Virus record (IMG/VR): IMGVR_UViG_3300017963_000154
Coordinates: 1-37,098 of that record
Origin: a virus
Reading direction: 5' to 3' (one strand)
DNA: 37,098 bases
Within the stretch, counting starts at the first letter, position 1; each line of letters opens with the position of its first letter. The notes below the pieces were generated by a model that ran no database searches, was not told where the DNA came from, and was given only the letters and a program-made list of their open reading frames with translations. Below, in pieces: positions 5,593-37,098 of this stretch. Made by a program: the position numbers and the translations under genes.

Positions 5593-5814
5593 TAGAAAGC
5601 GCTGTAACGCAGCGAAGCTTGAGCAGCGTAAGCAAGTGCGATCAGCAAGCAAGAAGGCGCTTTCTAAAACAAGAATTCTTGACAACAGACTCTGTTTTTA
5701 TAAAACTAATCATTGATTGCTTAATAAAAGAAAGAGCTTAAGCAATCTCTTCTAAAAGAAGATAAGGGAAAAAAGTGGGAGCAGTAGTAGCGGGATGTTG
5801 CTGCTGCTCTTTTT
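5593..5814 (+). ncRNA. Candidate ~215-nt structured non-coding RNA
   Basis: A rightward transcript from the promoter at 5565-5592 would start near 5599 and end at the terminator at 5779-5814. It contains one long hairpin closed by a 10-bp stem (5593-5602 with 5657-5666) around a GC-rich 54-base loop with smaller self-complementary parts (CGCTG/CAGCG at 5600-5604 and 5610-5614), a perfect 10-bp hairpin and a 6-bp hairpin. No open frame of use is present. The 3' end is convergent with, and touches, the terL stop codon. The class is unknown; a pRNA-like or antisense role is only speculation, and the DNA could instead be a packaging site. Confidence 0.35.
5779..5809. terminator. Bidirectional rho-independent terminator after terL
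   Basis: A 13-bp stem with three G-U pairs (5779-5791 with 5797-5809) and a 5-base loop. It is flanked by T5 on the plus strand (5810-5814) and T6 on the minus strand (5774-5769). It would end leftward terminase transcripts and any rightward transcript from the gap. Confidence 0.75.
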
Positions 5815-14255: not shown

Positions 14256-16232
14256 TTAAGCCTTATATTCTGTTACTGTTATAAAACTTTTCCCAACTCC
14301 CCCATATCTTCTAGCTCCCCCAGCTGTTCCTCCGTATGTCCAGAATTGATTAACAGATCCTCCTCCTCTTATTCTAAACGTAATTGGGGAAGTAGTTCCG
14401 GCTGTCATATAATGGTCTAGAAAGATGCTCTCTCCCAAAGGACCTTGTCCTCCTGAAGAATAAGACCCTTGGCTTGGGAAGGCCGCTAAAGCATTTGCTA
14501 CGGCATCTCTGAATAAAGCTATAGTCATGACTATTACATTGTTGCTGGCAGACCAGAAAAACCCACCATGAATATGTAAAATGCTAGTAGCAGAAGTAGG
14601 AGTAATTGAGACTGTTACTATTTGGGTTCCTTCCCCGATCTGAGGGATTGTGTCATCATAAGGGATTACTGTTTGTTGTTGCTGTACTCCATTTGTAGAG
14701 TTTCTAACTATTTGTACTACTTCTCCAGAAGAAGATTCATCTCCCCAGTCTACATTTCCTGCTCCATCAGTGATCAATACCTGTCCGGCTGTTCCGTCTG
14801 TAATGGGGAATTCATACGCTTGATTAAAGGTAATATCTCCAGTTGTTTTGACGGAAATAGAGGAAGTTCCTGTAGAAGGGTCAGCATTAGGCCCTATTTT
14901 AAGTTTATCAGCGTCTGAATTGTCTATTCCTACTGACCAATCTGTAGAGCCCGGAATCTTATAATTTACGTAAGCATCATTTCCTGCGGCTGATGTTTTA
15001 GAATAGATTCTTGTAGGTCCATCGGCTATTAAAGTAGAAGCTTGAATAGTTACTCCAGTAATACCGGAATTAGTTCCGAAATCTACATCTCCTAACTTAA
15101 CCGTTCCTGTGCCTGTAATAACGTTAGCAGCGGAGGATTTTATGGAGACTTGAGATAGAGTCAAAACATTAGAAGAGTTATGTGTAATAGCAATGTTGAC
15201 TCCAGTGTTAAACAAGGTGTTTGTACAACTTACCGTTGCAGTTGCAGAAGTAGTTAAAGTATGACTTAACCAACAGCCTCCATTTAAAGTTGAAGTAGCT
15301 GCTCCTTGGATAGTTATCGGGCATTGAATATGAACATTATAAAAAGTACAACTCCCAGAAACAGTCATAGTATTTCCAGAACCTGCCCCTATTGTTGCGT
15401 CTGTCATAAAGATAGTAGCGCCTGCAGTATTATTCACGACTCCATCGTTAGTAGAAATGCTTCCAATATCGAAATAGACAAAAGCACCAGTCCAGTTAGG
15501 TAAGTTAAAAACATATCCATTTGTTACGTCAATTTGGGAGTCCACTATTATGATACTTGAAGTCCCAGCAACCGCACTATTTAAAATGTCAGTTGCACTT
15601 TGCAAATAAAGATTTCTGATGGTAATCGTACCGCTTGCTGGAGGAGTATGTACGCCATTTATAATACATGTTGCGTTATCAGCTATTCCGATAGCTCCCC
15701 ATAAATCTACTTTGTCATATAAAGTTAAGTTTTCGTTATAGATTCCTTCTCTAATCCAAACGGTTCCTCCACCAGCGGCATTTGCGGCATCTAAAGCGCT
15801 TTGTATAGTTTGATATTCCGTCTCTCCGGCAGTAGGATCTACAACGTATTTAGTTATGTTTCTTAAGTCTTTAAAAGTTAGAGTATTGTTTCCAGGATCT
15901 CCCGTTACTTGCACACCGTTATCATAAGGGGAAGTGTTCCCTTTAAGATCAATATTTTCTAAACCATCTGGAGAAACTGCTCCTCCACTATCTCCTGTTA
16001 AAGTCTCTATTGCACCTGTTCCACCAATTCCTACCCAAGTAGATACACCACCACTCTTTAAAACAAGGATATAGGCCTCTAAAGCATTTTGATCGATCCA
16101 GATATCTCCCATATCATAAGCTCTATAGTCAGCTGTAGTTGGAGCTCTATTTCTAAAATAAAGCTGAGGAGGATTGGTTTCCTTTAAACCTACATAAGCT
16201 GTAGGATTTGAAGATGGTATTTTTGTAGACAT
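14256..16232 (-). CDS. Tail fibre / adhesin with beta-helix (658 aa)
   Basis: A mosaic adhesin. Residues 1-75 are an attachment module (NPPQLYFRNRAPTT, YDMGDIWIDQ) shared with the 528-residue protein. A LTGDSGGAVSP module follows (78-120). A right-handed beta-helix begins with the block KYVVDPTAGETEYQTIQSAL (128-147) and continues to about 400. Then comes GDAYVNYKIPGSTDWSVGIDNSDADKLKIG, also in the 317-residue protein. The last 150 residues look like a globular receptor-binding head (TPTSATSILHIHGGF). Beta-helix fibres bind or cut surface glycans; no catalytic residues can be assigned here. Start: AGGTG site. Confidence 0.8.
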   Translation of the reverse strand: MSTKIPSSNPTAYVGLKETNPPQLYFRNRAPTTADYRAYDMGDIWIDQNALEAYILVLKSGGVSTWVGIGGTGAIETLTGDSGGAVSPDGLENIDLKGNTSPYDNGVQVTGDPGNNTLTFKDLRNITKYVVDPTAGETEYQTIQSALDAANAAGGGTVWIREGIYNENLTLYDKVDLWGAIGIADNATCIINGVHTPPASGTITIRNLYLQSATDILNSAVAGTSSIIIVDSQIDVTNGYVFNLPNWTGAFVYFDIGSISTNDGVVNNTAGATIFMTDATIGAGSGNTMTVSGSCTFYNVHIQCPITIQGAATSTLNGGCWLSHTLTTSATATVSCTNTLFNTGVNIAITHNSSNVLTLSQVSIKSSAANVITGTGTVKLGDVDFGTNSGITGVTIQASTLIADGPTRIYSKTSAAGNDAYVNYKIPGSTDWSVGIDNSDADKLKIGPNADPSTGTSSISVKTTGDITFNQAYEFPITDGTAGQVLITDGAGNVDWGDESSSGEVVQIVRNSTNGVQQQQTVIPYDDTIPQIGEGTQIVTVSITPTSATSILHIHGGFFWSASNNVIVMTIALFRDAVANALAAFPSQGSYSSGGQGPLGESIFLDHYMTAGTTSPITFRIRGGGSVNQFWTYGGTAGGARRYGGVGKSFITVTEYKA

Positions 16233-16273
16233 TCAACACCTAGATGTTTACGTTTTAATGTTTTTGTATACTT

Positions 16274-17227
16274 TTAACCTAATAAATAGCCCATAAAATA
16301 GTTTATGGTCCCTGTATTTGCTACATCGCAAGTATCTGCTCCTTTCCCATTAGCTTGAACTCTAGCTATACATGTATCTGTAGCATCCATATCTGCAATT
16401 ACTGTCATGGTAACGGAAGCATCGTCTGATGCTACAACTCTTATTGGAGTGATATTCTGGAAGTTGGCTACATAGCTTCGTAAAGTTGTAGTAATATAAG
16501 TTTGAAAAGCAGTAGTTCCATTTACTTTTTCAAGTTCAACCCCCATTACAAAAAGGTATTTTCCAGTAACAGGAGCCGTGAAGGTATATGTTGCATTGTT
16601 ATAATCGCTATTATTATCCCATCTTTCAACGTTATAAGCGATAGTATAGATAGTTCCATTACCGGTAACGTTAGCTCTTACGGTCGCGTTATAAGCCATA
16701 AATCCAGGCTGTAAGGGGACGGTTCTTTCTCCTACCGTTGTCATCGCCCAAAGATTAGTTCCAGTAGAAGGTGACACTGTCGCAGAACCATGGTTTATTT
16801 TTAATTTATCTGAATCAGAATTGTCTATTCCTACAGAATATGCACTTCCTCCCTGTATTAAATAGCGAGAAAAAGCATCTCCTCCGGAAGCTCCCCCAGC
16901 TCTCATTATATGAACTGCGTTAGAAGTTGCAGAAGTATTATCTGTATTATAAGAGCTTATATATACTTCATTGCCGGTAGATGATAAAAGTTGTACAAAT
17001 TCCTGAACGGCTGTTGTAGTTATCGAAGCTCCTTGAAAGACTAATAATTCTGTACCACTTGAGGGATCTGTAGAATTTGTTACTTTTAAAAAGTTGTCAG
17101 TCGCATCTACACCAAAACTAAATTTATTAGCAGAATTAACATCAAACTTTACAAAACTATCAGCTACTGAACCAGGATCAATAGTTAAAGAAGAAGCGTT
17201 ACTATTTATTGCATTACTTTTAGACAT
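16274..17227 (-). CDS. Fibre protein with C1q-like head (317 aa)
   Basis: It has no beta-helix. The middle (about 130-170) carries SRYLIQGGSAYSVGIDNSD followed by SDKLKIN, shared with the 658-residue protein, and the C-terminal 150 residues (from RTVPLQPG) align with the end of the 848-residue protein: VTGNGT, ERWDNNSDYN, FTAPVTGKYLF, VIADMDATDTC. The FTAPVTGKY(L/W) block and overall pattern suggest a C1q/TNF-like jelly-roll trimer head, a common receptor-binding end of phage fibres. AGAGGGG ribosome site. Confidence 0.72.
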   Translation of the reverse strand: MSKSNAINSNASSLTIDPGSVADSFVKFDVNSANKFSFGVDATDNFLKVTNSTDPSSGTELLVFQGASITTTAVQEFVQLLSSTGNEVYISSYNTDNTSATSNAVHIMRAGGASGGDAFSRYLIQGGSAYSVGIDNSDSDKLKINHGSATVSPSTGTNLWAMTTVGERTVPLQPGFMAYNATVRANVTGNGTIYTIAYNVERWDNNSDYNNATYTFTAPVTGKYLFVMGVELEKVNGTTAFQTYITTTLRSYVANFQNITPIRVVASDDASVTMTVIADMDATDTCIARVQANGKGADTCDVANTGTINYFMGYLLG

Positions 17228-17251
17228 AATCCCCTCTTTTTAAGCTTATTT

Positions 17252-18055
17252 TTAAGCAACTGTTAAATTACCCATCATATTTTGAACCCTAAAGTCAGTA
17301 TCTGTAGTTATACATCTTAAAACAATACAATCACCTGCATCTGTAGCAGTTAAAGAACCGCCAACGCCTGTAGTTGTATTTTGGTTTCCTACATATATAG
17401 TTTGCCCTGCATTTTGAGCTACTGACCAGTTTCCTGCTTTTCCAATTACTTCAATTACAGAACCAGCAGCACATGTAGCTGGAAGAGTAAAAGCGATTCC
17501 TCCGCCTAAGTTCGCAGTATAAGCATGGTCAGCTTCCATTGTTTTAGGAGTAGCTGTTATTTCTTCATAGTCAAGGCCTGTAGCAGTAGAATCAATTGTT
17601 ATTGTTCCAGCACCGTTAGAAATTGAAATTCCAATTCCAGCAGTTATGGTAGCAGCAACAGGGTCGGCTCCAGTTGATCCGATTACAAGCTGTCCATTTG
17701 TCAAAGGCCCTATTTCAGTTACAGCAGCCGTTCCTGACCCAACAATCAAAGCATGATCAGTTATTGAAGCTGCTCCAGTTCCTCCACCAGGCACGGTCAA
17801 AAGCCCAACGCTAAAAGCGCCAGCGCCATCTGTTATTATTGGCTCTCCCGGATTCCCATCAGTTTTTGGATAATCCAAACCATCGATTGTTACTGCTTCT
17901 GTCCCTTTAGGGGTAATGGTTATTGGGATATTAGCATCAGTACCATCTGCAGCTAAAGTTGTTCCTGATAAAGTTACTGCAGCTGCTGCTACATTTGTAT
18001 CAAAAGTAGTCGCCCAGAGTGTATCTGAGGTTCTATTAATTGAGTTTTGTGTCAT
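17252..18055 (-). CDS. Fibre protein (267 aa) with shared AQNAGQ cap
   Basis: The N-terminal 120 residues are Thr/Ala/Gly-rich repeats of fibre type (ITPKGTEAVTIDGLDYP, LIVGSGTAAVTEIGPL, QLVIGSTGADPVAATI). The C-terminal 100 residues are a cap module: GNWSVAQNAGQTIYVGNQNT then TGVGGSL and an ending GNLTVA. The same module ends the 528- and 171-residue proteins, so they probably assemble or swap as adhesin tips. AGAGG site before the ATG at 18055. Confidence 0.72.
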   Translation of the reverse strand: MTQNSINRTSDTLWATTFDTNVAAAAVTLSGTTLAADGTDANIPITITPKGTEAVTIDGLDYPKTDGNPGEPIITDGAGAFSVGLLTVPGGGTGAASITDHALIVGSGTAAVTEIGPLTNGQLVIGSTGADPVAATITAGIGISISNGAGTITIDSTATGLDYEEITATPKTMEADHAYTANLGGGIAFTLPATCAAGSVIEVIGKAGNWSVAQNAGQTIYVGNQNTTTGVGGSLTATDAGDCIVLRCITTDTDFRVQNMMGNLTVA

Positions 18056-18069
18056 TTTATCACCTCTTG

Positions 18070-19656
18070 TTAAACGACATTAAGGTTTCCTATGGCCTGT
18101 CTTACTGTAAATTCTGTATCAGCGACAGAACATATTAAATCTACTTGGTCATATTGCTGTGTTGAATCTAAACTTCCCCCAACTCCTGCTGTAGTACTTT
18201 GATTTCCAAAATGTATTTGTTGACCAGCATTTTGGGCAATTGACCAACCACCAGCACCTTTACCGCAGATTTTAATCTTTTGACCTACAGAACAAGTTAC
18301 AGGCAAAGTAGCAGTTACTAATCCTGCATTGTTCAATATGTATCCATTATCTGGATTCATAGCTACTGCGACTCCAGTAACTTCTGTCCAAGTAGTTCCT
18401 CCTCCAGTTGAAGAGATTTGGATTGTTCCAGGGCCATTAGCGATTACTATTCCAGAACCTGCAAGTAGATTTGCTATTATTGGATTGACGCCAGTGGCTC
18501 CTATTATAAGCTCTCCATCATTAGCTACAGTTGTTGTTCCTCTATCAAAGCTTACATTTTGCAAATAAGCTGTTCCAGCTTCAAAAGAAGTAGGAAATGT
18601 TTCAGTTATTGTGCCGGCTATGTGGGCATCGGTAATAAAATCTAAAGAACCAACCTGGATAGTACCGTTTCCTCCAACCGCTGGATTATTAGAAGAATCA
18701 ATAGAAACATTATCGAAAGAAAAAGTGTTCGCTGAATTATGCGTGATTGCTTGATTTGCCCCAGTAGAAATAATAGAAGAATTTATAGAAACAGTGGCTG
18801 TGTCTGCAGTTGTAATGGTTCCTAATAATCTTGAATCAGAAATAGTTACATTAGAATCCCCTCCGAAGGTGCCTCCTATCACAATTATGCTGTTTCTAAT
18901 GGTAACGTCATTATTTTGAATAGTGAATGTAGCTGCTCCAGCTCCTAAGTAAGAATTTGTGATTCTAAGATTTCCTCTGTTTATACCTACAAGAAGACTA
19001 CTTATAATTCCGCAAGTAGTGCTTAAAGTATTGGTATCATTTATAATAAAAGCACCCGACCAATTCGGCATATTGAAGATAAAGCCGTTAGTACAATTAA
19101 CATAGCAATTATCTATAACTACTGTTCCAACACCCGGTAAAACTGTCGCAATGATATCTGTAGCAGATGTTAATGTTAGATTTTGAAAGACAACAGCTCC
19201 TAAAAGGGGAGGAACATGAGTTCCTGTAATAATTGTATTATCATTAATAGCTCCAGCTATATTAATACCATCGTAAAGAGTTAAGTTTTCGGTATAAACT
19301 CCAGCCCTGACATAGACAGTAGCATCTGAACCAGAAGCATTAGCGGCGTCTAATGCTGATTGAATTGTTACATAATCTGCAGTTCCATCAGCATCAACAA
19401 TATATTTTGAAATAGGAGCTTCTCCAAGCCCTCCAATAGCTTCCCAAAGAGCTGCAGTTTTAGTCTTTTTAATAAGAATAAATGTAAGATCAGAGGTTTG
19501 GTTTATCCAAATATCACCTGGATCATATTGCCTTATATCTGTTGTAGTTGGGTTTCTATTAGAAAAATAAAGCTGAGGGGGATTTTTTTCTTTTATCCCT
19601 TGATATGCTAAAGGATTAAAATTAGGGATAATATTCCCAGGAGTTTTTGCACTCAT
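18070..19656 (-). CDS. Tail fibre / adhesin with beta-helix (528 aa)
   Basis: Module order: attachment module (residues 1-85; NPPQLYFSNRNPTTTDIRQYD, with an extra Trp-containing loop WEAIGGLGE); beta-helix starting SKYIVDADGTADYVTIQSAL and running to about 340; a linker; then the AQNAGQ cap (about 420-528; GGWSIAQNAGQQIHFGNQST). It thus combines the N-terminus of the 658-residue fibre with the C-terminus of the 267-residue one. It is probably a virion surface fibre that contacts host glycans. AGAGG site before the ATG. Confidence 0.8.
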   Translation of the reverse strand: MSAKTPGNIIPNFNPLAYQGIKEKNPPQLYFSNRNPTTTDIRQYDPGDIWINQTSDLTFILIKKTKTAALWEAIGGLGEAPISKYIVDADGTADYVTIQSALDAANASGSDATVYVRAGVYTENLTLYDGINIAGAINDNTIITGTHVPPLLGAVVFQNLTLTSATDIIATVLPGVGTVVIDNCYVNCTNGFIFNMPNWSGAFIINDTNTLSTTCGIISSLLVGINRGNLRITNSYLGAGAATFTIQNNDVTIRNSIIVIGGTFGGDSNVTISDSRLLGTITTADTATVSINSSIISTGANQAITHNSANTFSFDNVSIDSSNNPAVGGNGTIQVGSLDFITDAHIAGTITETFPTSFEAGTAYLQNVSFDRGTTTVANDGELIIGATGVNPIIANLLAGSGIVIANGPGTIQISSTGGGTTWTEVTGVAVAMNPDNGYILNNAGLVTATLPVTCSVGQKIKICGKGAGGWSIAQNAGQQIHFGNQSTTAGVGGSLDSTQQYDQVDLICSVADTEFTVRQAIGNLNVV

Positions 19657-19672
19657 TTTTTACCTCTTATAG

Positions 19673-20224
19673 TTAAGCTTCTAATTCTTTTTCAGCTCTT
19701 GGTTTATAACCTACTTCTTGAACTACTAAATTAATACAGTCATCTACATTGGCAGGAATGGTTGTTCTTGCTGGATCTTTAAGATAATCTTTTATGAAAG
19801 CTTCTTTCCTAAGAGCTATCTTATTTTCCATATAGTCTTTCAAAACTTGTTCAGGATTATCATAAAAAGCTTTTAAAGCTTGATCTTCATAGTCTTCGAT
19901 AGAAAAACCACCAGACCAGATTTCTTGGTCTTTTACTTCTTTTCTTTCAGCGATTCTCTTCTCTAAAGAGCTTGTATTGTATGGTTTGAATTCAGGAAGA
20001 GCTATTAAATTAGGGATTAATATAGGAAGATCGATTGAAAAAGTTCCTGTTTGTTTTTTTCTATATATCTCAAAATAATCTCTTTTTATTGTTTTAAGGG
20101 CTTTATTGATCATTCCTTTCAATGCTTTTTCTGCCCATTCTTTCGGTGTTTCAAGTAGATAATGATCCCATGCTTTCTTGTCAGCAAGAGATATCTTGAA
20201 TCCATCAGAACATAAAGTTTTCAT
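19673..20224 (-). CDS. Conserved hypothetical protein between fibre genes
   Basis: A 183-residue, non-repetitive, helical protein unlike its fibre neighbours. Recurrent blocks: AWDHYLLETPKEWAEKALKGMI, IYRKKQTGTFSIDLPILIP, EIWSGGFSIEDYE, KAFYDNPEQVLKDYMENKI. Proteins with this block order are found in fibre clusters of other phages with no known function. Its position suggests a fibre chaperone or a small tail component. Strong AAGGAG site at the start. Confidence 0.68.
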   Translation of the reverse strand: MKTLCSDGFKISLADKKAWDHYLLETPKEWAEKALKGMINKALKTIKRDYFEIYRKKQTGTFSIDLPILIPNLIALPEFKPYNTSSLEKRIAERKEVKDQEIWSGGFSIEDYEDQALKAFYDNPEQVLKDYMENKIALRKEAFIKDYLKDPARTTIPANVDDCINLVVQEVGYKPRAEKELEA

Positions 20225-20239
20225 GTTTTTCTCCTTATA

Positions 20240-22786
20240 TTAACAAATTAAAGCTACTTCTAAGTAAGTGACAGCGATAGCTGCTGTTCCGGCAATATCA
20301 ACAGTTTTTCCTACATCTCCCTGTACCTCTAAAGAAATACCTACAGTATCAGCCGCATCCATATCTATTAAAGCAGAACAGTCAAAACTGGCTGCATTGT
20401 CTGACATTCTTACATTTGAAGGATTTAATCTATCTCCTTTATAAGTGCGGTTAGAAGAAAATATTCGAATTTCCATTAATGTATGGTTTGCATTTAAATC
20501 CTGAAGTGTCACGCATGCATCTACCCAATATCGTCCTGTTACGGGAGCTGTGAAATAGCCAGTTCCTGTATTGTAATCATTATTTTGATCAAATCTTTCA
20601 CTATTAAAAAGCACTAAAACAGATGTTGCATCGCCTGTAACATTGCTTTGGGCACTGCTTCTTTCGACACATACCGCCGGTTGGAGTGGCATTGTTCTTT
20701 CTCCGGCAGCTGTCATCTTCCAGACATTTGTGCCAGCAGAAGGAGTTGCTCCTCCTTGGTTTATCTTTAAAGCATCTGCGTCATCGTCATCTACTCCCAT
20801 TACGAATTCATCCACATCATTTATCTGGAAAAGCACATAGCTATCTCCTGAAACTCCGGGATCTAAAGTTAAGGAAGCAGCATCATGTGCCGCACAAGAA
20901 ATATCATGTACTGTCAAATCCCCAGAAGAATCCCAGCAATACTGAGTAGAAGATAATATTTTTATGGTTCCTTCTGTAGGTGGAGTTGTTAAAGCATTTT
21001 TAGTTCTGGTTATTCTTATCCAATAATAATTTTGGCCATTAACAGTAGTCGCGACCCAGCCTACTAAATCAGAAGAGGAGAAAGAAATCAATCCATCTTG
21101 AACAAATCCTTGTGTATCATCTTGAGGAGAAAAAGTTGTCCACGCAGGGCCTACTATAGAATATTCGAAAACAGGTTTTATACTTACACTTGCAGCTATG
21201 ATTAAAGCAACTTCTATTTGATCAAAAACAGCATTGCTGCCTATATAAATTTCATCATTATCATTTACAAAAATTTGAACATTAGAAGCTCCGGAACCAA
21301 AAGCTGCGGTTACGTCGGTAAAAACTCCATCATACTTCCATGCGAAAGAAGGACCGGCAAATGCTCCTAATAATTGTCTAACAACTCCTAGCCCTGGATG
21401 AACTACTATCCCACAAACATTAGGGGCAGAAGCTCCTACTCTAGAAACATCTATCGCGTGGATAAATCCTCCTGTAGAAGTCCCTGTGTTTACAACTATA
21501 TCATGCCCTGTCTCAGTGTCACCAGCAACTAAACCAGTTTCATTAAAGTCATGATGTATTTCCCCATCGACAAATATTGCTTCATTATCTATAGGGCAAA
21601 GAAGTCTTACTTCGCATCCCCAGCCAAAAGCTCTTAGAGCAGTATGGCATAAATCTCCTGTATAAGTAGTGGGGAGAGTAATCATCACCGCTGCCATCTG
21701 GGGATCGTTAGTTAAATCCATCCCAGATAAATCTATATTTAATGCATTTACAAAAGCGCTCCCTGCGGTAGGATCTAAATCTGAGCCGTCTATATTTATT
21801 CCTTGCCAGGTAGAACCAGCTATCGCAGTATCAGGCGTTATATCAATTACATTTTGAGTGCCCGTTCCTTCTCCTCTTGCATTAAGATAATTTGTATTTA
21901 TAGTTCCTGAATTAAATGTTTTTCTATTCAAAGTTAAAGATGAATCATAATTGGCATTATCCAAAAATGTTATGGATCCAATTGTATAAGTTCCATTCCC
22001 ATCGATCGCAGGATCGTTAGAAGTATCTATTGTTAATTCGCTTAAGACAACTGTTGAAGAAGACAAATGATTAACGGCTTCTCCTGTTGATGGTATTAAA
22101 GTAGAATTGAATATTTCTCCACTCGCAGACCCTCTTATATTAACAGTATTCAATAAAAGACATCCTTGATCAAAATTAAATTGAACAGAACCATTTAAAT
22201 TAAGCGTGCATCTAATTTCTGAATTTACAGCAACAATTGCTCCTGAAGCTAGCAAGAATTGATAGGTAGTTCCGCTTCCGCCAAGTCTTGAATCTACAAT
22301 TCTGATATCCATTGTCCCTGAAGTATTATCCATAATTCCATTATCAGAACCTATAGATTCACAACGTTTCATAATTAAAGTTCCAGACCATTGAGGAGTT
22401 AAGAAAATGTGTCCATCCGTACAACTGAAAAGACAGTCTTCAAAATAAGCATCAGATAATGTTGGGCCTGCATTAGTAAATATATTGCTGCCAGTATGAG
22501 TAAAGTAGATAGATTTAATAGATATTTCATTAGAAACAGGAAGTTGATGGGTTCCTTCAATTGTTACAGCTGTTGGAGCATCAGATGTTTGGGCTCCTAT
22601 TAAATTAACTCCATCATAAAGAGTTAAGTTTTCAGTATATGTTCCCGGGCGTATATAAATTACGCCTCCTCCTGCTGCTTGAGCTATATTAATAGCTTCC
22701 TGGATCGTCTGGTAACAGGAGACATCATTAGTATCTACGATGTATTTTGATATCTCGTAGAGATTTGTTGAACTATGGGTAGTCAT
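20240..22786 (-). CDS. Largest adhesin with beta-helix and C1q-like head (848 aa)
   Basis: The beta-helix module starts almost at the N-terminus (SKYIVDTNDVSCYQTIQEAI, residues 13-32) with no attachment module, and runs to about 275. A long middle follows (NVIDITPDTAIAGSTWQGIN; a globular part near 420-620 with WATTVNGQNYYWIRITR). The end, from RTMPLQPA, is the C1q-like head shared with the 317-residue protein. Lacking the attachment module, it may dock onto another fibre. AGGAGG ribosome site. Confidence 0.8.
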   Translation of the reverse strand: MTTHSSTNLYEISKYIVDTNDVSCYQTIQEAINIAQAAGGGVIYIRPGTYTENLTLYDGVNLIGAQTSDAPTAVTIEGTHQLPVSNEISIKSIYFTHTGSNIFTNAGPTLSDAYFEDCLFSCTDGHIFLTPQWSGTLIMKRCESIGSDNGIMDNTSGTMDIRIVDSRLGGSGTTYQFLLASGAIVAVNSEIRCTLNLNGSVQFNFDQGCLLLNTVNIRGSASGEIFNSTLIPSTGEAVNHLSSSTVVLSELTIDTSNDPAIDGNGTYTIGSITFLDNANYDSSLTLNRKTFNSGTINTNYLNARGEGTGTQNVIDITPDTAIAGSTWQGINIDGSDLDPTAGSAFVNALNIDLSGMDLTNDPQMAAVMITLPTTYTGDLCHTALRAFGWGCEVRLLCPIDNEAIFVDGEIHHDFNETGLVAGDTETGHDIVVNTGTSTGGFIHAIDVSRVGASAPNVCGIVVHPGLGVVRQLLGAFAGPSFAWKYDGVFTDVTAAFGSGASNVQIFVNDNDEIYIGSNAVFDQIEVALIIAASVSIKPVFEYSIVGPAWTTFSPQDDTQGFVQDGLISFSSSDLVGWVATTVNGQNYYWIRITRTKNALTTPPTEGTIKILSSTQYCWDSSGDLTVHDISCAAHDAASLTLDPGVSGDSYVLFQINDVDEFVMGVDDDDADALKINQGGATPSAGTNVWKMTAAGERTMPLQPAVCVERSSAQSNVTGDATSVLVLFNSERFDQNNDYNTGTGYFTAPVTGRYWVDACVTLQDLNANHTLMEIRIFSSNRTYKGDRLNPSNVRMSDNAASFDCSALIDMDAADTVGISLEVQGDVGKTVDIAGTAAIAVTYLEVALIC

Positions 22787-22795
22787 TTATTCCTC

Positions 22796-23311
22796 CTAAT
22801 TAACCTTTAAAGTTCCGACAACTGATAAAACTGACCAAGTAGTATCTGCAACTCGGCAAACTATTTTTACACAATCATATTGATTCTTAGAGTCTATAGA
22901 TCCAGCTACGCCTAATGTTGTTGCTGCTGAACCGAATTGGATTTGTTGACCAGCATTCTGTGCAATAGTCCATCCGCCAGCGCCTTCGCCGCATATCTCT
23001 ATAATAGATCCTACTGCAGCAGTTGCAGGCAATGTCACTGTGGTTAAAGCTACGTTTGTAGGAATGTATCCAGTATTAATATCAGCAGCTTGCGTAGTCC
23101 CTGCTACTCTATACCATTTTACGCCTCCACCGACTACATCAAACGTAATTTGATAAGATCCCGGTGTTCCTGTAGTTGTAAGTCCTGTGCCGCCTATTAA
23201 ATCAATGTTAAAACTTGCCGGATGAGGATGGACAGCAGCCCCTATATCTCCGGTAAGTGATTCTATATCAGGCAGAAATGAATCGTCAGCATATCTTCCA
23301 GCTTGAGACAT
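22796..23311 (-). CDS. Small fibre protein with AQNAGQ cap (171 aa)
   Basis: The start is set at 23311 because of a perfect AAGGAGG site; the longer frame to 23389 overlaps the next gene. It opens MSQAGRYADDSFLPDIESLTG with the LTGD.G.AV module, then IDLIGGTGLTTTGTPGSYQITF, and ends with the cap (GGWTIAQNAGQQIQFGSAAT). It is a minimal version of the fibre architecture: joint plus tip without a beta-helix. Confidence 0.75.
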   Translation of the reverse strand: MSQAGRYADDSFLPDIESLTGDIGAAVHPHPASFNIDLIGGTGLTTTGTPGSYQITFDVVGGGVKWYRVAGTTQAADINTGYIPTNVALTTVTLPATAAVGSIIEICGEGAGGWTIAQNAGQQIQFGSAATTLGVAGSIDSKNQYDCVKIVCRVADTTWSVLSVVGTLKVN

Positions 23312-23322
23312 GTTTATCCTCC

Positions 23323-23655
23323 TTATGCATGAATAACTTCGATATATACAGAGCCTACTGTTGGAGCAACTCCTGTATGTTTTACCCAAATATAGCCTTG
23401 TTCAGCCAAGAAAAAGCCATCATCACGTACTTTATTTGTAGTAATATCAATTAATTTAAAAGAACGAGGAGGTAAGATGAAATGATTGTTTGTTCCGTCT
23501 ATTGAAAAATAAACATCAGCATCGGTTAGGTTGTTTAGGATTAATATTCTAGCTGGATCAGCTAAAACAGCTCCTACTGCACTATAATTTGCGCCAATAG
23601 CTCCAAAAGCTGCGCTTCTTATAGCATCGATTTTTACTCTATTTTTATATGCCAT
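23323..23655 (-). CDS. Small virion structural protein of the fibre cluster
   Basis: A 110-residue all-beta protein: MAYKNRVKIDAIRSAAFGAI, ADPARILILNNLTDADVYFSI, FILPPRSFKLIDITTNKV, GYIWVKHTG, VYIEVIHA. This pattern (NR.K.DA.RS...G.I...Y..VG..L..P.R...I.N.TD) recurs as a small structural protein beside tail fibre genes of short-tailed phages and may form a fibre collar or adaptor. Start at 23655 with AGGA upstream. Confidence 0.7.
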   Translation of the reverse strand: MAYKNRVKIDAIRSAAFGAIGANYSAVGAVLADPARILILNNLTDADVYFSIDGTNNHFILPPRSFKLIDITTNKVRDDGFFLAEQGYIWVKHTGVAPTVGSVYIEVIHA

Positions 23656-23673
23656 AAGTTATCCTGTTTTGTA

Positions 23674-23696
23674 GAGGCAATTTTGGCCTCGTTTTT
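23674..23696 (+). terminator. Small rightward terminator-like hairpin
   Basis: GAGGC/GCCTC (23674-23678 with 23686-23690) and T5 at 23692-23696 on the plus strand. It lies upstream of the rightward gene at 23780 and could block antisense transcription coming through the fibre genes. Confidence 0.35.
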
Positions 23697-23779
23697 AAAC
23701 TTATATTAAACTTTTTACTACTAATGTAAAGTAGATTTTATAACTTATCAAAATAAATATTTAAAAAAAGGAGAACATT

Positions 23780-24049
23780 ATGTCAGAAGAAATTAAACAG
23801 GAAAATCCACCGAAAAAAATGTTTGCAGAAGCTAGAGGAAAATATACATTGATTGATGGTCAAAAGGTATTTTCTTTCGAATTTTATAATCAGGCAACAT
23901 TAATGGAAAATTACGATGTCTTAACTTATATGAGAGATCGATTATGGGCAGCTATTGAAGAACAGAAAAAAAAAGAGAAGGAAACGATCCCGATGACAGA
24001 AGAAGAATTTCAAAATGCCGTAAAAGAAGGTGAAGTAGTCCAAGAATAA
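23780..24049 (+). CDS. Small charged rightward protein within the fibre region
   Basis: An 89-residue, charged protein: MFAEARGKYTLIDGQKVFSF at 14-33, then a helix ending in KKKEKETI and an acidic tail. AAAGGAG precedes the ATG. It is the only plus-strand gene between 14165 and 25723, so it must have its own promoter (the 84 bases upstream are very AT-rich; no clear boxes chosen). No family is recognised. Its orientation matches the early genes. Confidence 0.55.
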   Translation: MSEEIKQENPPKKMFAEARGKYTLIDGQKVFSFEFYNQATLMENYDVLTYMRDRLWAAIEEQKKKEKETIPMTEEEFQNAVKEGEVVQE

Positions 24050-24057
24050 ATAAAAAA

Positions 24058-24077
24058 GGAGCCTTTTTATAGGCTCC
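24058..24077 (-). terminator. Leftward terminator after the 504-residue fibre gene
   Basis: GGAGCC/GGCTCC (24058-24063 with 24072-24077) followed by T6 on the minus strand. It separates the first fibre gene from the remaining fibre genes, which therefore need read-through or another promoter. Confidence 0.65.
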
Positions 24078-24110
24078 CACATGTTTTACTAACCAAAGGA
24101 TGCAATTATG

Positions 24111-25625
24111 TTAAGGACTGATTGTAGTCCAGTATGGAATATATCTCACATTCGCATTTGCGTAAATCTTTAACCATCCAGATGAATTAGCAGGATTAGC
24201 AGTTTTCATTAATACTGTTCCAATTCCAGCGCCTAAAGCTTCATCATAAACATTTGTAAGACCAACAGTTGCGGCAATCCCTACTCCAGCATCTCCGTCA
24301 ATATCAACCTGTCTAGTTTGAGTATTCAATGTGACGTCCATTTGATTGAATCCAGCATCTCCAAGTGATGTAATAGCAGCAACAGGAGTTCCGGTAGAAT
24401 CTTCAATTTCTACTTGATTAGCTCCAGCAGCGTCTCCACATCTAAGTCCTAAATTCCTACCTAATGGAGACATAACATGCGCTGATGCAAAAACACCTTG
24501 GGCTGAAGTAGTTAAAGCTGGGTTAATATGATCATCAATACCAAACTCGACTCCGAGAAGTTGAAGTACGCCAGCTCCAACTCCATCTATGATTGGATTG
24601 TTAGACCCACTTATAGAAGTCATTTGGACGATTAAAGAATTTCCAGAACCATGAGATATTGCTTCTTTAACGTCATTTGTCATAACGCAATTTAATAAGA
24701 AGTTGCTAGCTGTATCAGCAGTAGTTAAAGTAGCATCTGTAAAAATACAGCTGTAGAATCTACCAAAACCTGTGCTAGAAACAGTAATGTCTTCAAGGAA
24801 ATAAGTATTGTAAAAGTCATGTATGAAAGTTAAACCAGTAAATACAGAAGGACATCTTATCCCTGAATTTTGAATAAAAGAAGAAGAAGAACAGGTCATG
24901 GTATTACCAGTTCCATCTCCTACTGTTGATTCAAAAATAAATATAGGAACTCCTCCAGTGTTAGTCATAACACCATTGTCAACGCTTGAATCATAACATT
25001 GACTTATAGTGAAAGTCGCAGGCGCTGTCCAATTGAGCAAATTAAAAATATATCCATTAGTTATTTCAACTACGCATCTTACTAAAGTAATACTAGAAGC
25101 TCCAGCAGCCGCAGAATTAAATATATCTGTAGCTGATTGAAAGTCTATTGCACAAAATGAAACATATCCAGTAAGTGGAGGAGTATGAACTCCAACGATA
25201 ATTACTTTTTGAGCTAATGGAGAAGCAGTAGCTCCAACCACATCAACAGCATCATATAGAGTTAAGCTTTCGGTATAGGTTCCAGGTCGTACATAGACAG
25301 TTCCGCCACCAGCAGCATTTGCGGCATCAATAGCTGTCTGTATTGTTGTATAATCAGCAGTACCATCCGGGTCTACTATAAATTTAGATATAGGGGCATT
25401 TCCTCCTGCTGATTGAGAGACTGGCTCCCAGTTAGCAGCTCCTGCAGCAATTGACGTCAATGTCCAAATATTATTAGTGGATTCATTAATCCAATCAGTT
25501 CCAATAGAATAGCCTATATCGGCTGCTAATGGATTTCTTTGAGCTACAACAGGCAAAGGTCCTAACTTTTGCAAAGGATTCCTTATCCCATATGCTCTTG
25601 ATTTTCTTTTTACATCTGAACTCAT
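24111..25625 (-). CDS. Tail fibre / adhesin with beta-helix (504 aa)
   Basis: It has a divergent N-terminal attachment module (1-92; RNPLAADIGYSIGTDWINEST replaces the NPPQLYF version) and then the beta-helix, starting SKFIVDPDGTADYTTIQTAI, to about 370. The C-terminal part is short (VEIEDSTGTPVAAITSLGDA ... WLKIYANANVRYIPY) and lacks both the cap and the C1q-like head. It is the first gene of the fibre region, with an AAGGAGGG site, divergent from the RHH regulator, and has its own terminator. Confidence 0.8.
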   Translation of the reverse strand: MSSDVKRKSRAYGIRNPLQKLGPLPVVAQRNPLAADIGYSIGTDWINESTNNIWTLTSIAAGAANWEPVSQSAGGNAPISKFIVDPDGTADYTTIQTAIDAANAAGGGTVYVRPGTYTESLTLYDAVDVVGATASPLAQKVIIVGVHTPPLTGYVSFCAIDFQSATDIFNSAAAGASSITLVRCVVEITNGYIFNLLNWTAPATFTISQCYDSSVDNGVMTNTGGVPIFIFESTVGDGTGNTMTCSSSSFIQNSGIRCPSVFTGLTFIHDFYNTYFLEDITVSSTGFGRFYSCIFTDATLTTADTASNFLLNCVMTNDVKEAISHGSGNSLIVQMTSISGSNNPIIDGVGAGVLQLLGVEFGIDDHINPALTTSAQGVFASAHVMSPLGRNLGLRCGDAAGANQVEIEDSTGTPVAAITSLGDAGFNQMDVTLNTQTRQVDIDGDAGVGIAATVGLTNVYDEALGAGIGTVLMKTANPANSSGWLKIYANANVRYIPYWTTISP

Positions 25626-25706
25626 TATCCCTCCTTATTAAAGAATTTTTGAGTACAGTGTCATCTTATTAAAATAATCTTTTATATTGTAGATAATTCT
25701 CATTTG

Positions 25707-25714
25707 GTGTACAC
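25707..25714. promoter_or_regulatory. Possible operator palindrome GTGTACAC
   Basis: A perfect 8-bp palindrome in the 98-bp divergent region, 10 bases before the start of a ribbon-helix-helix gene. Regulators of that fold usually bind such palindromes in their own promoter. No test beyond position. Confidence 0.3.
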
Positions 25715-25723
25715 ATATACATT

Positions 25724-25885
25724 ATGCCAATGAAGAATAGTAAGAGAATTATAATTGAAGTAGAGCCTGAATATCATGAAATCGTGAAAAATCAGGCAAA
25801 AAAGCTCAATATGACGATAAAAGCATATATTCTTTATTTGATAAATAATGAAATAACCAAAAGAGAGGAACTTAAAAAATGCTAA
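25724..25885 (+). CDS. Ribbon-helix-helix (CopG/Arc-like) regulator, 53 aa
   Basis: A 53-residue protein: KRIIIEVEPEYHEIVKNQAK gives the beta strand and first helix, LNMTIKAYILYLINNEI the second. This is the minimal RHH fold, which binds DNA as a dimer through the strand. It overlaps the next gene by 7 bp. There is no clear ribosome site before the ATG at 25724 (Met3 is an alternative), so translation may be leaderless or weak. It probably controls the divergent region between early genes and the fibre operon. Confidence 0.65.
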   Translation: MPMKNSKRIIIEVEPEYHEIVKNQAKKLNMTIKAYILYLINNEITKREELKKC

Positions 25886-26271
25886 AAAAAGAAAAATATA
25901 AGTTTAAGTCAGAGCGTGAAGAACAAATTTATAATCTAAGAAATAAAGGAATGACTTACACTGAAATTTCTAAAATTTTTCGAGTTACTCCTCCAGCAAT
26001 TCGTCAATCATTTTTACGAATAGAACGACAAATAAAAGACATTCAAGAAGCAGAAAAACCAAATTCGCTAGACCTTATTCAATGGGAATCCCAAGAAGTA
26101 AGAATAAAAAATGGTTTAAAAAATTTAGAGATTACTACCATTGATGAATTAATTTCTTTAACACCTTCAGATCTCTTAAAGGTTAGAAATTTAGGAAGAA
26201 TATGTATTTATGTAATACGTTCTACATTAAAAAGGCATGGATATAAATTAAAAGAAAATAAAGGAACTTAA
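25879..26271 (+). CDS. HTH protein fused to an RNA polymerase alpha-CTD-like domain
   Basis: A 130-residue protein of two parts. Residues about 12-50 are a sigma region 4/LuxR-like helix-turn-helix (EEQIYNLRNKGMTYTEISKI, then TPPAIRQSFLRI). Residues about 71-124 match the C-terminal domain of the bacterial alpha subunit: EVRIKNGLKNLEI, TTIDELISLTPSDLLKV, RNLGRICIYVIRSTLKRHGY. Against the E. coli 265 determinant, Arg265, Asn268 and Gly296 are kept (R75, N78, G106) while Lys298, Ser299 and Glu302 are changed. It likely acts on host RNA polymerase or on promoter DNA as a phage transcription factor. AGAGG site; followed 2 bp later by the next gene. Confidence 0.75.
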   Translation: MLKKEKYKFKSEREEQIYNLRNKGMTYTEISKIFRVTPPAIRQSFLRIERQIKDIQEAEKPNSLDLIQWESQEVRIKNGLKNLEITTIDELISLTPSDLLKVRNLGRICIYVIRSTLKRHGYKLKENKGT

Positions 26272-26273
26272 AG

Positions 26274-26468
26274 ATGACAATCTTAACTCAAAATTTGCTA
26301 AGTATACGCCAGTTTGCGTTGAAACATCCAAGCATCACTGAACAAACCCTTAGAAATTTAATTAGATTTCGTCAAATAGAAGGATGTATTGTTCATGTTT
26401 CTAATAAAATATTTTTAGATGAAGATAAGTTTTTTAAATTATTAGCTAATAGAGCGAGGTTAATATGA
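26274..26468 (+). CDS. Small HTH-like DNA-binding protein
   Basis: A 64-residue protein with a MerR/excisionase-type pattern: SIRQFALKHPSITEQTLRNL, then IRFRQIEGCIVHVSNKIFLD. The TLRNLI(R)xR...G...V...N..FLDE layout is that of short phage HTH proteins with a beta wing. It starts 2 bp after the alpha-CTD gene (AAGGAAC site) and overlaps the next gene (ATGA). It may be a regulator or a replication accessory. Confidence 0.6.
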   Translation: MTILTQNLLSIRQFALKHPSITEQTLRNLIRFRQIEGCIVHVSNKIFLDEDKFFKLLANRARLI

Positions 26469-26992: not shown

Positions 26993-27130
26993 ATGTTTTT
27001 TTTAATTATTTTTGGGTGCCTTCTTTTAATTTATATCAGTCATAAAAACTATAAAGCCGAAATATCTGAAATTGAAGATTCGCCTTTTCCAGAGAAAGAA
27101 AAGAAATATTATTTTCCTGAAGATTTTTGA
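26993..27130 (+). CDS. Single-span membrane protein, 45 residues
   Basis: MFFLIIFGCLLLIYISHKNY gives one membrane helix, followed by a charged tail rich in Glu and Lys. A GGAGC site lies upstream. It converges with and overlaps the end of the ejection protein gene by 22 bp. Function unknown. Confidence 0.5.
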   Translation: MFFLIIFGCLLLIYISHKNYKAEISEIEDSPFPEKEKKYYFPEDF

Positions 27131-28377
27131 TTTTTAGGTATAAATTCAAATTCTTCTTCCAGAAGTTCCGGATATTCTTTATTAGCGGCTCTTTCAAATC
27201 CTTTTATTTCATTGACTGCCCCTTTTCCTCCCCTTTGGAAAGCTCTGCCTATTGCGTTCAAATAATGTTTTCTCAATGCAGGAGTTGTTACAATCCTATG
27301 GATCATTTCAGAGGCTTTAGCAAGACCTAATCCAGACAAATAAGTTCTTGGGCTTAAACCAAAGGCGATCCACGAGAGTGGATTTTTTAGATCTGCAGGA
27401 GCTTTTGCTCTTAATATTCTTGTCGCTTTTGCAGAATTAGAAAGGCCTTGCAATATTTGATCTCCTTCATTTAAATATGCCAAAAATTTAGGATTTTGCG
27501 TCTTTCCATATAACTGTAATTCTTTATTGAGAGATTTATTTATTCCACTTAAATATCGCTTTGCTCCTGTCATGGTAGTAGGATCTTTTATAATGTCGTT
27601 TACAGCTGTTCTAAAAGCATAGGTTTCATTAGCAGGTATCATTCCATTATTTTTGTCTATTATATTAATAATTTCGTCTGCTTTTTTTAATACAGGGACT
27701 TTAGAAGGAGAAGTACCGCCTCGGGACAATTTAGTTCTTATATTTTCCATGTCTCTTTTTAACGCTTTGGCATTGATCATTGCTCCTTCAGGGATAACAT
27801 TGTCGGCCGCTCTGTGATATTCTCTAGCTATTCCTCTAGCTCCTTTCCCTCCTCTACTACCTATAAGCATATCTGTTAATAAAATAGTCCCACTTCTGAT
27901 AATATCTGGCACTTTAAAAAATCTTTTATCAACCTGATCAAATCCCTCATTTAACCCTATGTTTATAGCTGGCAATAAGACAGTTGCTAATTTTCCTCCG
28001 GCTCCTCCTAAACCCATTAAAGAACCTAATCCTCCAGCATATTCTTGAGCTAATTGCTCACCTTTTCCTGAAGGAGCTAAACTTTCTCCAGTTTGCCTTT
28101 CGAGAAATTTCATAAAATTCTCCGAAGAAGGCATTTTTTCTAAATCTCGTTGAGGAACTCTAAAAAAAGTAGCAGCCATTTTAAGTAAATCTGCTGGAGC
28201 TCCTAATAATCTTGCACCCCAAGTTGTTCCAACTTTCCGTATGGGTTCTCTAACTTTTTCAATTTGTTCAGGAGTAAATAATTCTTTGCCAAAAAAACTT
28301 AAGTCTTTACTTATTTCTTCAGCTTTCTGTCTTGATTTTGGAATAAATTCAAAATCCCCTTCTATATTTGCCGTCAT
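27109..28377 (-). CDS. Probable ejection (internal virion) protein, 422 aa
   Basis: The last gene of the virion block. A largely helical, basic protein with a Gly-rich hydrophobic stretch (about 113-143; YAGGLGSLMGLGGAGGKLAT), suited to membrane passage, and no enzyme domain. The motif FEFIPK occurs at both ends (residues 9-14 and 410-415). Internal proteins of short-tailed phages leave the head first and build a channel through the host envelope; this assignment rests on position and composition. It overlaps its upstream neighbour by ATGA. Confidence 0.6.
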   Translation of the reverse strand: MTANIEGDFEFIPKSRQKAEEISKDLSFFGKELFTPEQIEKVREPIRKVGTTWGARLLGAPADLLKMAATFFRVPQRDLEKMPSSENFMKFLERQTGESLAPSGKGEQLAQEYAGGLGSLMGLGGAGGKLATVLLPAINIGLNEGFDQVDKRFFKVPDIIRSGTILLTDMLIGSRGGKGARGIAREYHRAADNVIPEGAMINAKALKRDMENIRTKLSRGGTSPSKVPVLKKADEIINIIDKNNGMIPANETYAFRTAVNDIIKDPTTMTGAKRYLSGINKSLNKELQLYGKTQNPKFLAYLNEGDQILQGLSNSAKATRILRAKAPADLKNPLSWIAFGLSPRTYLSGLGLAKASEMIHRIVTTPALRKHYLNAIGRAFQRGGKGAVNEIKGFERAANKEYPELLEEEFEFIPKNQKSSGK

Positions 28378-36222: not shown

Positions 36223-37098
36223 TTATGCTAGTGTAGTTCTTAAGTTAATCAACCAAGCATCATTCAAAAGTCTTGGAACTTGAGCAAATTTATATCCAGC
36301 TGTTTGTCTTTGCAAAAGTGGATCATTGCCAGCGCCAAGTCCTTGATAAATGAATTGAGCTGATGCACCATCTTGTTCTACGACTGCATAAGCTTCACGT
36401 CCTGTCACAAAACAGTTATATATATCATTGCCAAGTAAAGAAGAATTATCAGTAACAGATCCGATTGGGCTATAAAGCCATCGTGTGTTACCAACAGATC
36501 CCCACTCTGCATGAAGTATATTCATTTGTGCAGGATATTGTGCGGTATTAATAAATCCATCTACGTTTTCCAAGTTAGGGAGAACAGCAGAATTGCACAT
36601 TGCCCAATAAGATTCCCTAATTGGGGCTGTACCAAACTTGTCTTCTCCTTCGATATTATCAGAAATCATTCTTGCTGAGTTATTTATCAAAGCAAAAATA
36701 ACTGCATCAACATCTGCTCTTGTTAATTCTGTAGGTGAATCTCCATTTACTCCATTTACACAGTTAATGAAAGCAGCAGTAGCTTCAAGCATATTTCTTG
36801 TTAGCTCATCATCTGTCTCACGAAGAGATTGAGCTAAAAGAGAAGCTGTTTCATTTAAGACTGGATCTTGGTTTTGGATTGTTACTTGGTCAGTAACGAT
36901 CACATAAGTTCCGTACCAGTCAACAACTGCGTCTATGTCCAATGCACTTAAAGTTTGAGGAGGAGGTGTAATGCCAGTAGGTCCTAATGGCACTGTTGCT
37001 CTCGCTAGATTATTATATCTACGATAACGAACAGTTGTACCACTTCTATAAGGAAGCCTTTTTTTCATAGCCATTTTATTATGGATAAGTAAAGGCTC
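36223..37098 (-). CDS. Major capsid protein, N4-gp56 family (3' part; 5' end at 198 across the join)
   Basis: The C-terminal 283 residues and beyond: after the MAMKKRLPYRSGTTVRYRRY block come LGPTGITPPPQTLS, DWYGTYVIVTDQVTIQNQDP, LRETDDELTRNMLEATAAFI, a glycan-free alpha/beta core, and a C-terminus with GREAYAVVEQDG and TAGYKFAQVPRLLNDAWLIN. These blocks match N4-gp56 family capsid proteins. The internal ATG at 37074 is not the start: the frame is open to the window edge and, through the 123-bp overlap, to the ATG at 198. Full length 316 residues. Confidence 0.92.
   Translation of the reverse strand, partial: EPLLIHNKMAMKKRLPYRSGTTVRYRRYNNLARATVPLGPTGITPPPQTLSALDIDAVVDWYGTYVIVTDQVTIQNQDPVLNETASLLAQSLRETDDELTRNMLEATAAFINCVNGVNGDSPTELTRADVDAVIFALINNSARMISDNIEGEDKFGTAPIRESYWAMCNSAVLPNLENVDGFINTAQYPAQMNILHAEWGSVGNTRWLYSPIGSVTDNSSLLGNDIYNCFVTGREAYAVVEQDGASAQFIYQGLGAGNDPLLQRQTAGYKFAQVPRLLNDAWLINLRTTLA
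36976..37098. repeat. Terminal direct repeat, right copy
   Basis: Identical to 1-123 and lying within the major capsid frame. It shows that the sequence is circular in assembly. Confidence 0.95.

Follow-up and report, generated by a model that had tools for sequence, protein, structure and literature searches.

The phage genome analysed here encodes a small protein in which a sigma-region-4-like helix-turn-helix (HTH) is followed by a domain resembling the C-terminal domain of the RNA polymerase alpha subunit (alpha-CTD). Judged by sequence comparison, this HTH-alphaCTD combination is a recurrent phage protein architecture and not a lone oddity. The DNA analysed, a stretch of 37,098 nt representing the IMG/VR virus record IMGVR_UViG_3300017963_000154, is referred to as the window throughout. 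Alpha-CTD and sigma region 4 (sigma4) are the parts of RNA polymerase that meet at the boundary of the -35 region and the UP element, and they are phage targets (T4 AsiA, Alt and ModA). Transcription regulators of phages are already known, as are alpha-CTD domains and sigma4 HTHs; for the fused form, phage HTH-alphaCTD or sigma4-alphaCTD proteins, no description was found in the open full-text literature searched, which holds few subscription journals and preprints. The features of the gene and its surroundings are compiled in Table 1.

Table 1. Positions of the cassette genes, protein domains and putative operator in the window
Feature	Position	Strand	Remarks
Candidate operator of the ribbon-helix-helix (RHH) protein, GGTGTACAC, containing the palindrome GTGTACAC	25706..25714	.	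before the cassette; 10-mer in common with the sister phage
RHH protein, 53 aa	25724..25885	+	heads the cassette; 7-nt overlap with the HTH-alphaCTD gene
HTH-alphaCTD protein, 130 aa	25879..26271	+	ATG start; PF03118 match; syntenic ortholog in L121
Sigma-region-4-like HTH, residues 11-47	25909..26019	+	Sigma70_r4_2 below cut-off; hhalign to phage sigma4 domains
Alpha-CTD domain, residues 73-126	26095..26256	+	PF03118, rpoA NCBIfam models, PDB 1z3e
Small protein, 64 aa, probably MerR/Xis-type HTH	26274..26468	+	weak similarity to cassette gene of relatives
DnaG-type CHC2 zinc-ribbon protein, 155 aa	26465..26932	+	PF01807 49.3 bits; phrog_6444 DNA primase E 2.8e-13
ORF, 45 aa, hydrophobic N-terminal stretch	26993..27130	+	no family match

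Domain composition of the HTH-alphaCTD protein

An alpha-CTD-like C-terminal part had been proposed in a preliminary description made from the sequence alone, and the profile search bore this out. The Pfam profile RNA_pol_A_CTD (PF03118) matched residues 74-118 with 38 bits (E 1.4e-9), the curated gathering threshold being 23.8 bits. Residues 73-128 matched the RpoA models of NCBIfam, and the best PDB sequence was the B. subtilis alpha-CTD (E 3.8e-6), with related alpha-CTDs also among the top ranks. Using our own alpha-CTD model, which was built without the window sequence, the protein reached 49.5 bits whereas none of about 3,800 scored shuffles exceeded 10.0 bits. The likeness to alpha-CTD (PF03118; B. 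subtilis RpoA, 1z3e) extends over about 55 residues and includes the VR..N motif and the KVRNLGR loop, whereas the fusion of an HTH in front and the altered residues 298, 299 and 302 set the protein apart from the alpha-CTD of RpoA, and the first 21 positions of the PF03118 profile are unmatched. A better match to a DNA-repair family of the helix-hairpin-helix (HhH) type, named beforehand as the finding that would speak against an alpha-CTD, was absent: the Pfam search returned no HhH repair family at E up to 1, and the protein matches alpha-CTD specifically and not the general HhH families.

The ORF has an HTH in the place of an N-terminal domain of the alpha subunit (alpha-NTD), and its 130 residues stay below the full-length rpoA cut-offs (227-523 bits). 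Due to the missing alpha-NTD, the protein cannot be a replacement alpha subunit. A special closeness of its alpha-CTD to the RpoA of Chlamydiota was considered as well and dropped (best 40%, E 1.8e-5).

The claimed presence of both HTH and alpha-CTD in one protein was confirmed, the HTH being weak by itself. Sigma70_r4_2 matched with 18.4 bits, under its Pfam cut-off of 25.7, and the HTH barely exceeded shuffled sequences (14.5 versus 13.2 bits). The ortholog of a sister phage, introduced below, likewise scored below cut-off on the Sigma-70 region 4 profile (15.5 bits). When the HTHs of both orthologs were compared jointly with phage sigma4 domains, hhalign gave a probability of 96.2% with an E-value of 2.4e-9. 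In terms of sequence similarity, the HTH assignment is therefore weak for the window protein alone and convincing once the sister ortholog joins. Of the earlier wording, sigma4/LuxR-like, the first half held; the LuxR-like reading was unsupported for the window protein and was rejected, sigma-4-like being the better class.

The protein has the order of the HTH and the IRQ core of the recognition helix in common with Sigma-70 region 4 (PF04545/PF08281), and differs from Sigma-70 factors in its sub-cut-off region 4, in the absence of sigma2 and sigma3 and in a Pro-Pro pair within the recognition helix TPPAIRQ. In the alignment, this pair occupies the positions of Arg584 and Glu585 of sigma70. 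Because the equivalents of these two residues are Pro-Pro, a consensus -35 element is an unlikely target of the HTH.

Cassette organisation, sister phage and genome context

The HTH-alphaCTD gene is the second gene of its cassette and not the first, as had been stated, since the RHH ORF precedes it. Small DNA-binding proteins as its neighbours had been correctly foreseen, with RHH and probable HTH genes adjoining. The RHH protein matched the Arc-like repressor family phrog_582 (E 2.6e-4) and, below cut-off, a NikA-like profile (20.8 bits). For the 64-aa protein no family match was obtained in Pfam, PHROG or NCBIfam; it resembles the first cassette gene, 67-68 aa, of two relatives (G006 and G008) with 8.3 bits versus 7.5 bits for the best shuffle. 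The idea that it is the split-off HTH_17 of the sigma4-alphaCTD proteins of other phages was unsupported, as 44 of 1000 shuffles scored as high. The slot of the 45-aa ORF is occupied in relatives by several small hydrophobic proteins.

Upstream of the cassette, the palindrome GTGTACAC is present as a single copy in the window (expected 0.17) and as a single copy in the sister genome, in each case before the RHH gene, and the 10-nt sequence TGGTGTACAC, which spans it, precedes the RHH gene in both phages. A shared 9-mer with an 8-nt palindrome arose by chance in 10 of 2000 shuffled pairs. From its position and conservation we infer that the palindrome is a candidate operator for the RHH protein. 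A promoter scan of the cassette region yielded nothing above shuffled sequences.

A full-length ortholog of the HTH-alphaCTD protein was found with a scan using a 15-member profile in the sister phage IMGVR_UViG_3300031707_000076 (37.7 kb; L121:3896-4525). The two proteins are 38% identical over residues 5-126 (E 3e-23), the ortholog matches PF03118 with 33.9 bits, and its gene occupies the same slot, between homologs of the tail-fibre-like gene and of ORF 27109-28377. With 209 aa it is extended at the N- and C-termini relative to the window protein. The RHH gene, 54% identical, also lies upstream in the sister phage; there, two small genes separate it from the HTH-alphaCTD gene, whereas the pair overlaps in the window. 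Identity amounts to 23/54 residues in the HTH and 21/55 in the alpha-CTD versus 3/13 in the linker, and across the 123 aligned codons the mismatch rate is 0.29 at codon position 2 compared to 0.48 and 0.55 at the other positions. This minimum at position 2, together with the higher identity of the domains over the linker, fits a selected protein and is as expected if both HTH and alpha-CTD are under selection.

PF03118 was absent from the other related phages of 37-40 kb, all full-size records, and these carry other small genes in the cassette slot; in two relatives, a small HTH-like gene comes first and is followed by hydrophobic proteins. As far as these genomes tell, the cassette slot is variable and the HTH-alphaCTD gene is an accessory that the phage lineage can do without, because related full-size phages lack it. 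Close relatives were not found in IMG/VR or in GTDB genomes by single-protein search, and every tblastn hit of the protein in INPHARED and PLSDB was either of the bacterial rpoA type or in a stretch without annotation.

The CHC2 zinc-ribbon gene is the second gene after the HTH-alphaCTD gene within the cassette, which is in keeping with a role as replication or recombination accessory, whereby the HhH-type domain and the HTH would help to load the DnaG-like zinc-ribbon protein at the phage origin. Such a role is highly improbable: the sister phage possesses the RHH and HTH-alphaCTD genes but gave no match to the CHC2 protein at E 1e-3, and the genes that probably serve replication and recombination (ERF, YqaJ, DnaD-like) are located elsewhere in the genome.

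The window carries an exact 123-nt direct repeat at its ends (1-123 and 36976-37098), and one contig (L003) crosses both. Because of the end repeat and this contig running across the ends, the window probably represents an entire, circularly assembled phage genome of 37 kb. Two further observations were made in it. The terminase large subunit gene (5813-7969) contains an intein at residues 405-670 (PF14890 Intein_splicing, 49.4 bits), and the tail-fibre-like paralogs at 14256-25625 (beginning at 14256, 18070, 20240 and 24111) have a common repeated module of the type SKYIVDADGTADYxTIQSALDAANAAGG. Capsid relatives were detected in bins of Simkaniaceae, Parachlamydia, Saccharibacteria, Methanomicrobiales and Methylococcaceae. 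The Chlamydiota bins among these give no more than a hint of a tailed phage of Chlamydiota, as relatives also turn up in bins of three other groups. Two of the capsid relatives (L072 and L075; 60-63% in the best segment) lie on contigs of 35-40 kb binned with Simkaniaceae and Parachlamydia, and in the latter the homolog of the major capsid gene (L075:8013-9719) is broken up by short repeated inserts.

Alpha-CTD proteins of other phages and their contact residues

IMG/VR was scanned with a degenerate DNA pattern for D-[LIMF]-x-K-x-R-N-x-G-[KR]. The pattern matched 29 stretches with about 27 alpha-CTD ORFs, none of which looked like a full-length RpoA, and roughly nine distinct proteins have one or more HTHs ahead of the alpha-CTD. 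Three of them (L046, L044 and L058) scored above the curated thresholds for Sigma70_r4 as well as for RNA_pol_A_CTD. An N-terminal HTH_17 was found in L044, L048, L049 and L058, above cut-off in the latter three. The genes in L046, L048 and L049 are phage genes, given that head-morphogenesis, terminase, NinG and SSB genes are among their neighbours. In the PDB, a profile of 15 phage relatives including the window protein matched alpha-CTD at E 4.9e-26 and region 4 of SigA at E 5.7e-11, and hhalign of the window protein with the phage sigma4-alphaCTD proteins gave 99% over both domains. These proteins (L046, L044 and L058, and with HTH_17 plus alpha-CTD L048 and L049) resemble the window protein in having the HTH first and the alpha-CTD second; in contrast to it they comprise 191-332 aa, with a longer linker, mostly conserved Lys298/Ser299 and often an N-terminal HTH_17. 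The PHROG families matched by them are general sigma/HTH families or have no description, and none states the HTH-alphaCTD architecture.

PF03118 was also matched above cut-off by Goe8 gp5, Microbacterium phage Mazun gp26, Morganella phage Mecenats66 ORF34 and Mycobacterium phage Marley1013 gp51, in which, unlike in the window protein, an HTH partner was not found. The alpha-CTD is fused to NinX (Mecenats66; L037), and in L038 it is followed by a Cys-rich zinc-finger-like sequence. One candidate carrier of an alpha-CTD relative was discarded: MT836419.1, an UNVERIFIED fecal 'Bacteriophage sp.' record, is a bacterial chromosomal rpoA locus and not phage DNA. Apart from the phage proteins, a number of Chlamydiota genomes encode a second alpha-CTD protein besides RpoA, of about 400-430 aa with the domain internal and scoring up to about 39 bits (L117:659-1927 and L118:1050-2342).

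The fusion to unrelated partners in other phages means that alpha-CTD can serve as a mobile module. Together with the location of the gene in an operon that encodes small DNA-binding proteins and opens with an RHH gene preceded by the conserved palindrome, these fusions favour a plain DNA-binding regulator or autoregulator, in which the two modules would lengthen the footprint on its own or a divergent late promoter, mainly for repression and with no contact to polymerase. This reading is rather unlikely, as the match is specific to alpha-CTD and the module that recurs beside it is sigma region 4, to which alpha-CTD is naturally adjacent at promoters.

With regard to DNA contacts, the alignment agreed at all six positions with the pattern described beforehand, with the E. 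coli alpha-CTD sequence serving as residue ruler. R75, N78 and G106 correspond to the conserved Arg265, Asn268 and Gly296 (E. coli numbering), and I108, C109 and V112 stand where Lys298, Ser299 and Glu302 would be, so that the full DNA-contact set is absent. Every sequence in a table of alpha-CTDs from phages and mobile elements has Arg265, most have Lys298 and Ser299, and none departs as far as the window protein at 298, 299 and 302 combined; the trio of losses as I, C and V is seen in no other phage sequence of this table. The sister ortholog still has Arg298 and Ser299. R265 and N268 are critical residues of alpha-CTD for DNA binding (PMC11434276). With I, C and V at positions 298, 299 and 302, minor-groove binding by the window alpha-CTD may be weakened.

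These residues bear on a possible function as decoy or inhibitor of host transcription, by which the alpha-CTD copy would occupy UP elements or host activators and lower the activity of host promoters, those of rRNA above all. The conserved equivalents of Arg265 and Asn268 would suit it, as would the precedent of phages that attack alpha-CTD: T4 Alt and ModA modify Arg265 (PMC2988021), and the alpha subunit is the target of Rac in phiKMV-like phages (PMC7552054). Nevertheless, a decoy is improbable, since the loss of Lys298, Ser299 and Glu302 should weaken competition for UP elements, the HTH would be needless, and the gene is an accessory present in some relatives only.

Proposed role at phage promoters

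What is observed is the presence and order of both domains, their conservation in the sister phage and the location of the gene downstream of an RHH gene that a conserved palindrome precedes. Every functional step beyond domain identity, operon structure and conservation is one that we infer. On this basis, the chances are about even that the protein is a transcription regulator, an activator or appropriator, which brings HTH and alpha-CTD next to each other on promoter DNA. The searched ORFs of the window included neither a phage RNA polymerase nor a complete sigma factor, and the phage therefore probably relies on the host polymerase. At promoters, sigma4 binds the -35 element and alpha-CTD the adjoining UP element (PMC2988021), and alpha-CTD and sigma4 are present together, each as a chain of its own, in the PDB entry 3n97. 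One chain of the HTH-alphaCTD protein would thus combine two holoenzyme modules for the upstream half of a promoter, namely a sigma4-like HTH for the major groove and an alpha-CTD for contact with the minor groove and as docking surface for sigma4 and activators. In the proposed sequence of events, the RHH protein would bind the palindrome GTGTACAC and set the expression of the operon, the HTH would bind phage promoter DNA near -35, the alpha-CTD would clamp the adjacent AT-rich minor groove and/or touch host sigma4 or alpha-CTD, and the polymerase would be stabilised at the phage promoter, with the protein lying beside the polymerase's own sigma4 and alpha-CTD contacts or competing with them.

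Sigma appropriation by T4 MotA/AsiA, where a phage DNA-binding protein is situated at -35 beside sigma4 (PMC2988021), is comparable in the way of working; no alpha-CTD homology is known for the T4 proteins, and membership in that system is not claimed. In the Spx-alphaCTD complex of B. subtilis, regulator and alpha-CTD read the promoter as a unit (PMC2801614), but there the alpha-CTD is that of the polymerase, whereas in the window protein it is fused to the regulator.

It is tentatively suggested that phages have repeatedly built regulators that copy the sigma4 plus alpha-CTD face of the promoter complex in one small protein, which would stand in for or compete with polymerase contacts and thereby select phage promoters. 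The window protein would then be a minimal member, with an alpha-CTD drifting from DNA binding to protein docking. A phage protein with both modules would be a compact tool for asking what the sigma4-alphaCTD contact does, and it may represent a host-takeover route that is missing from current phage annotation.
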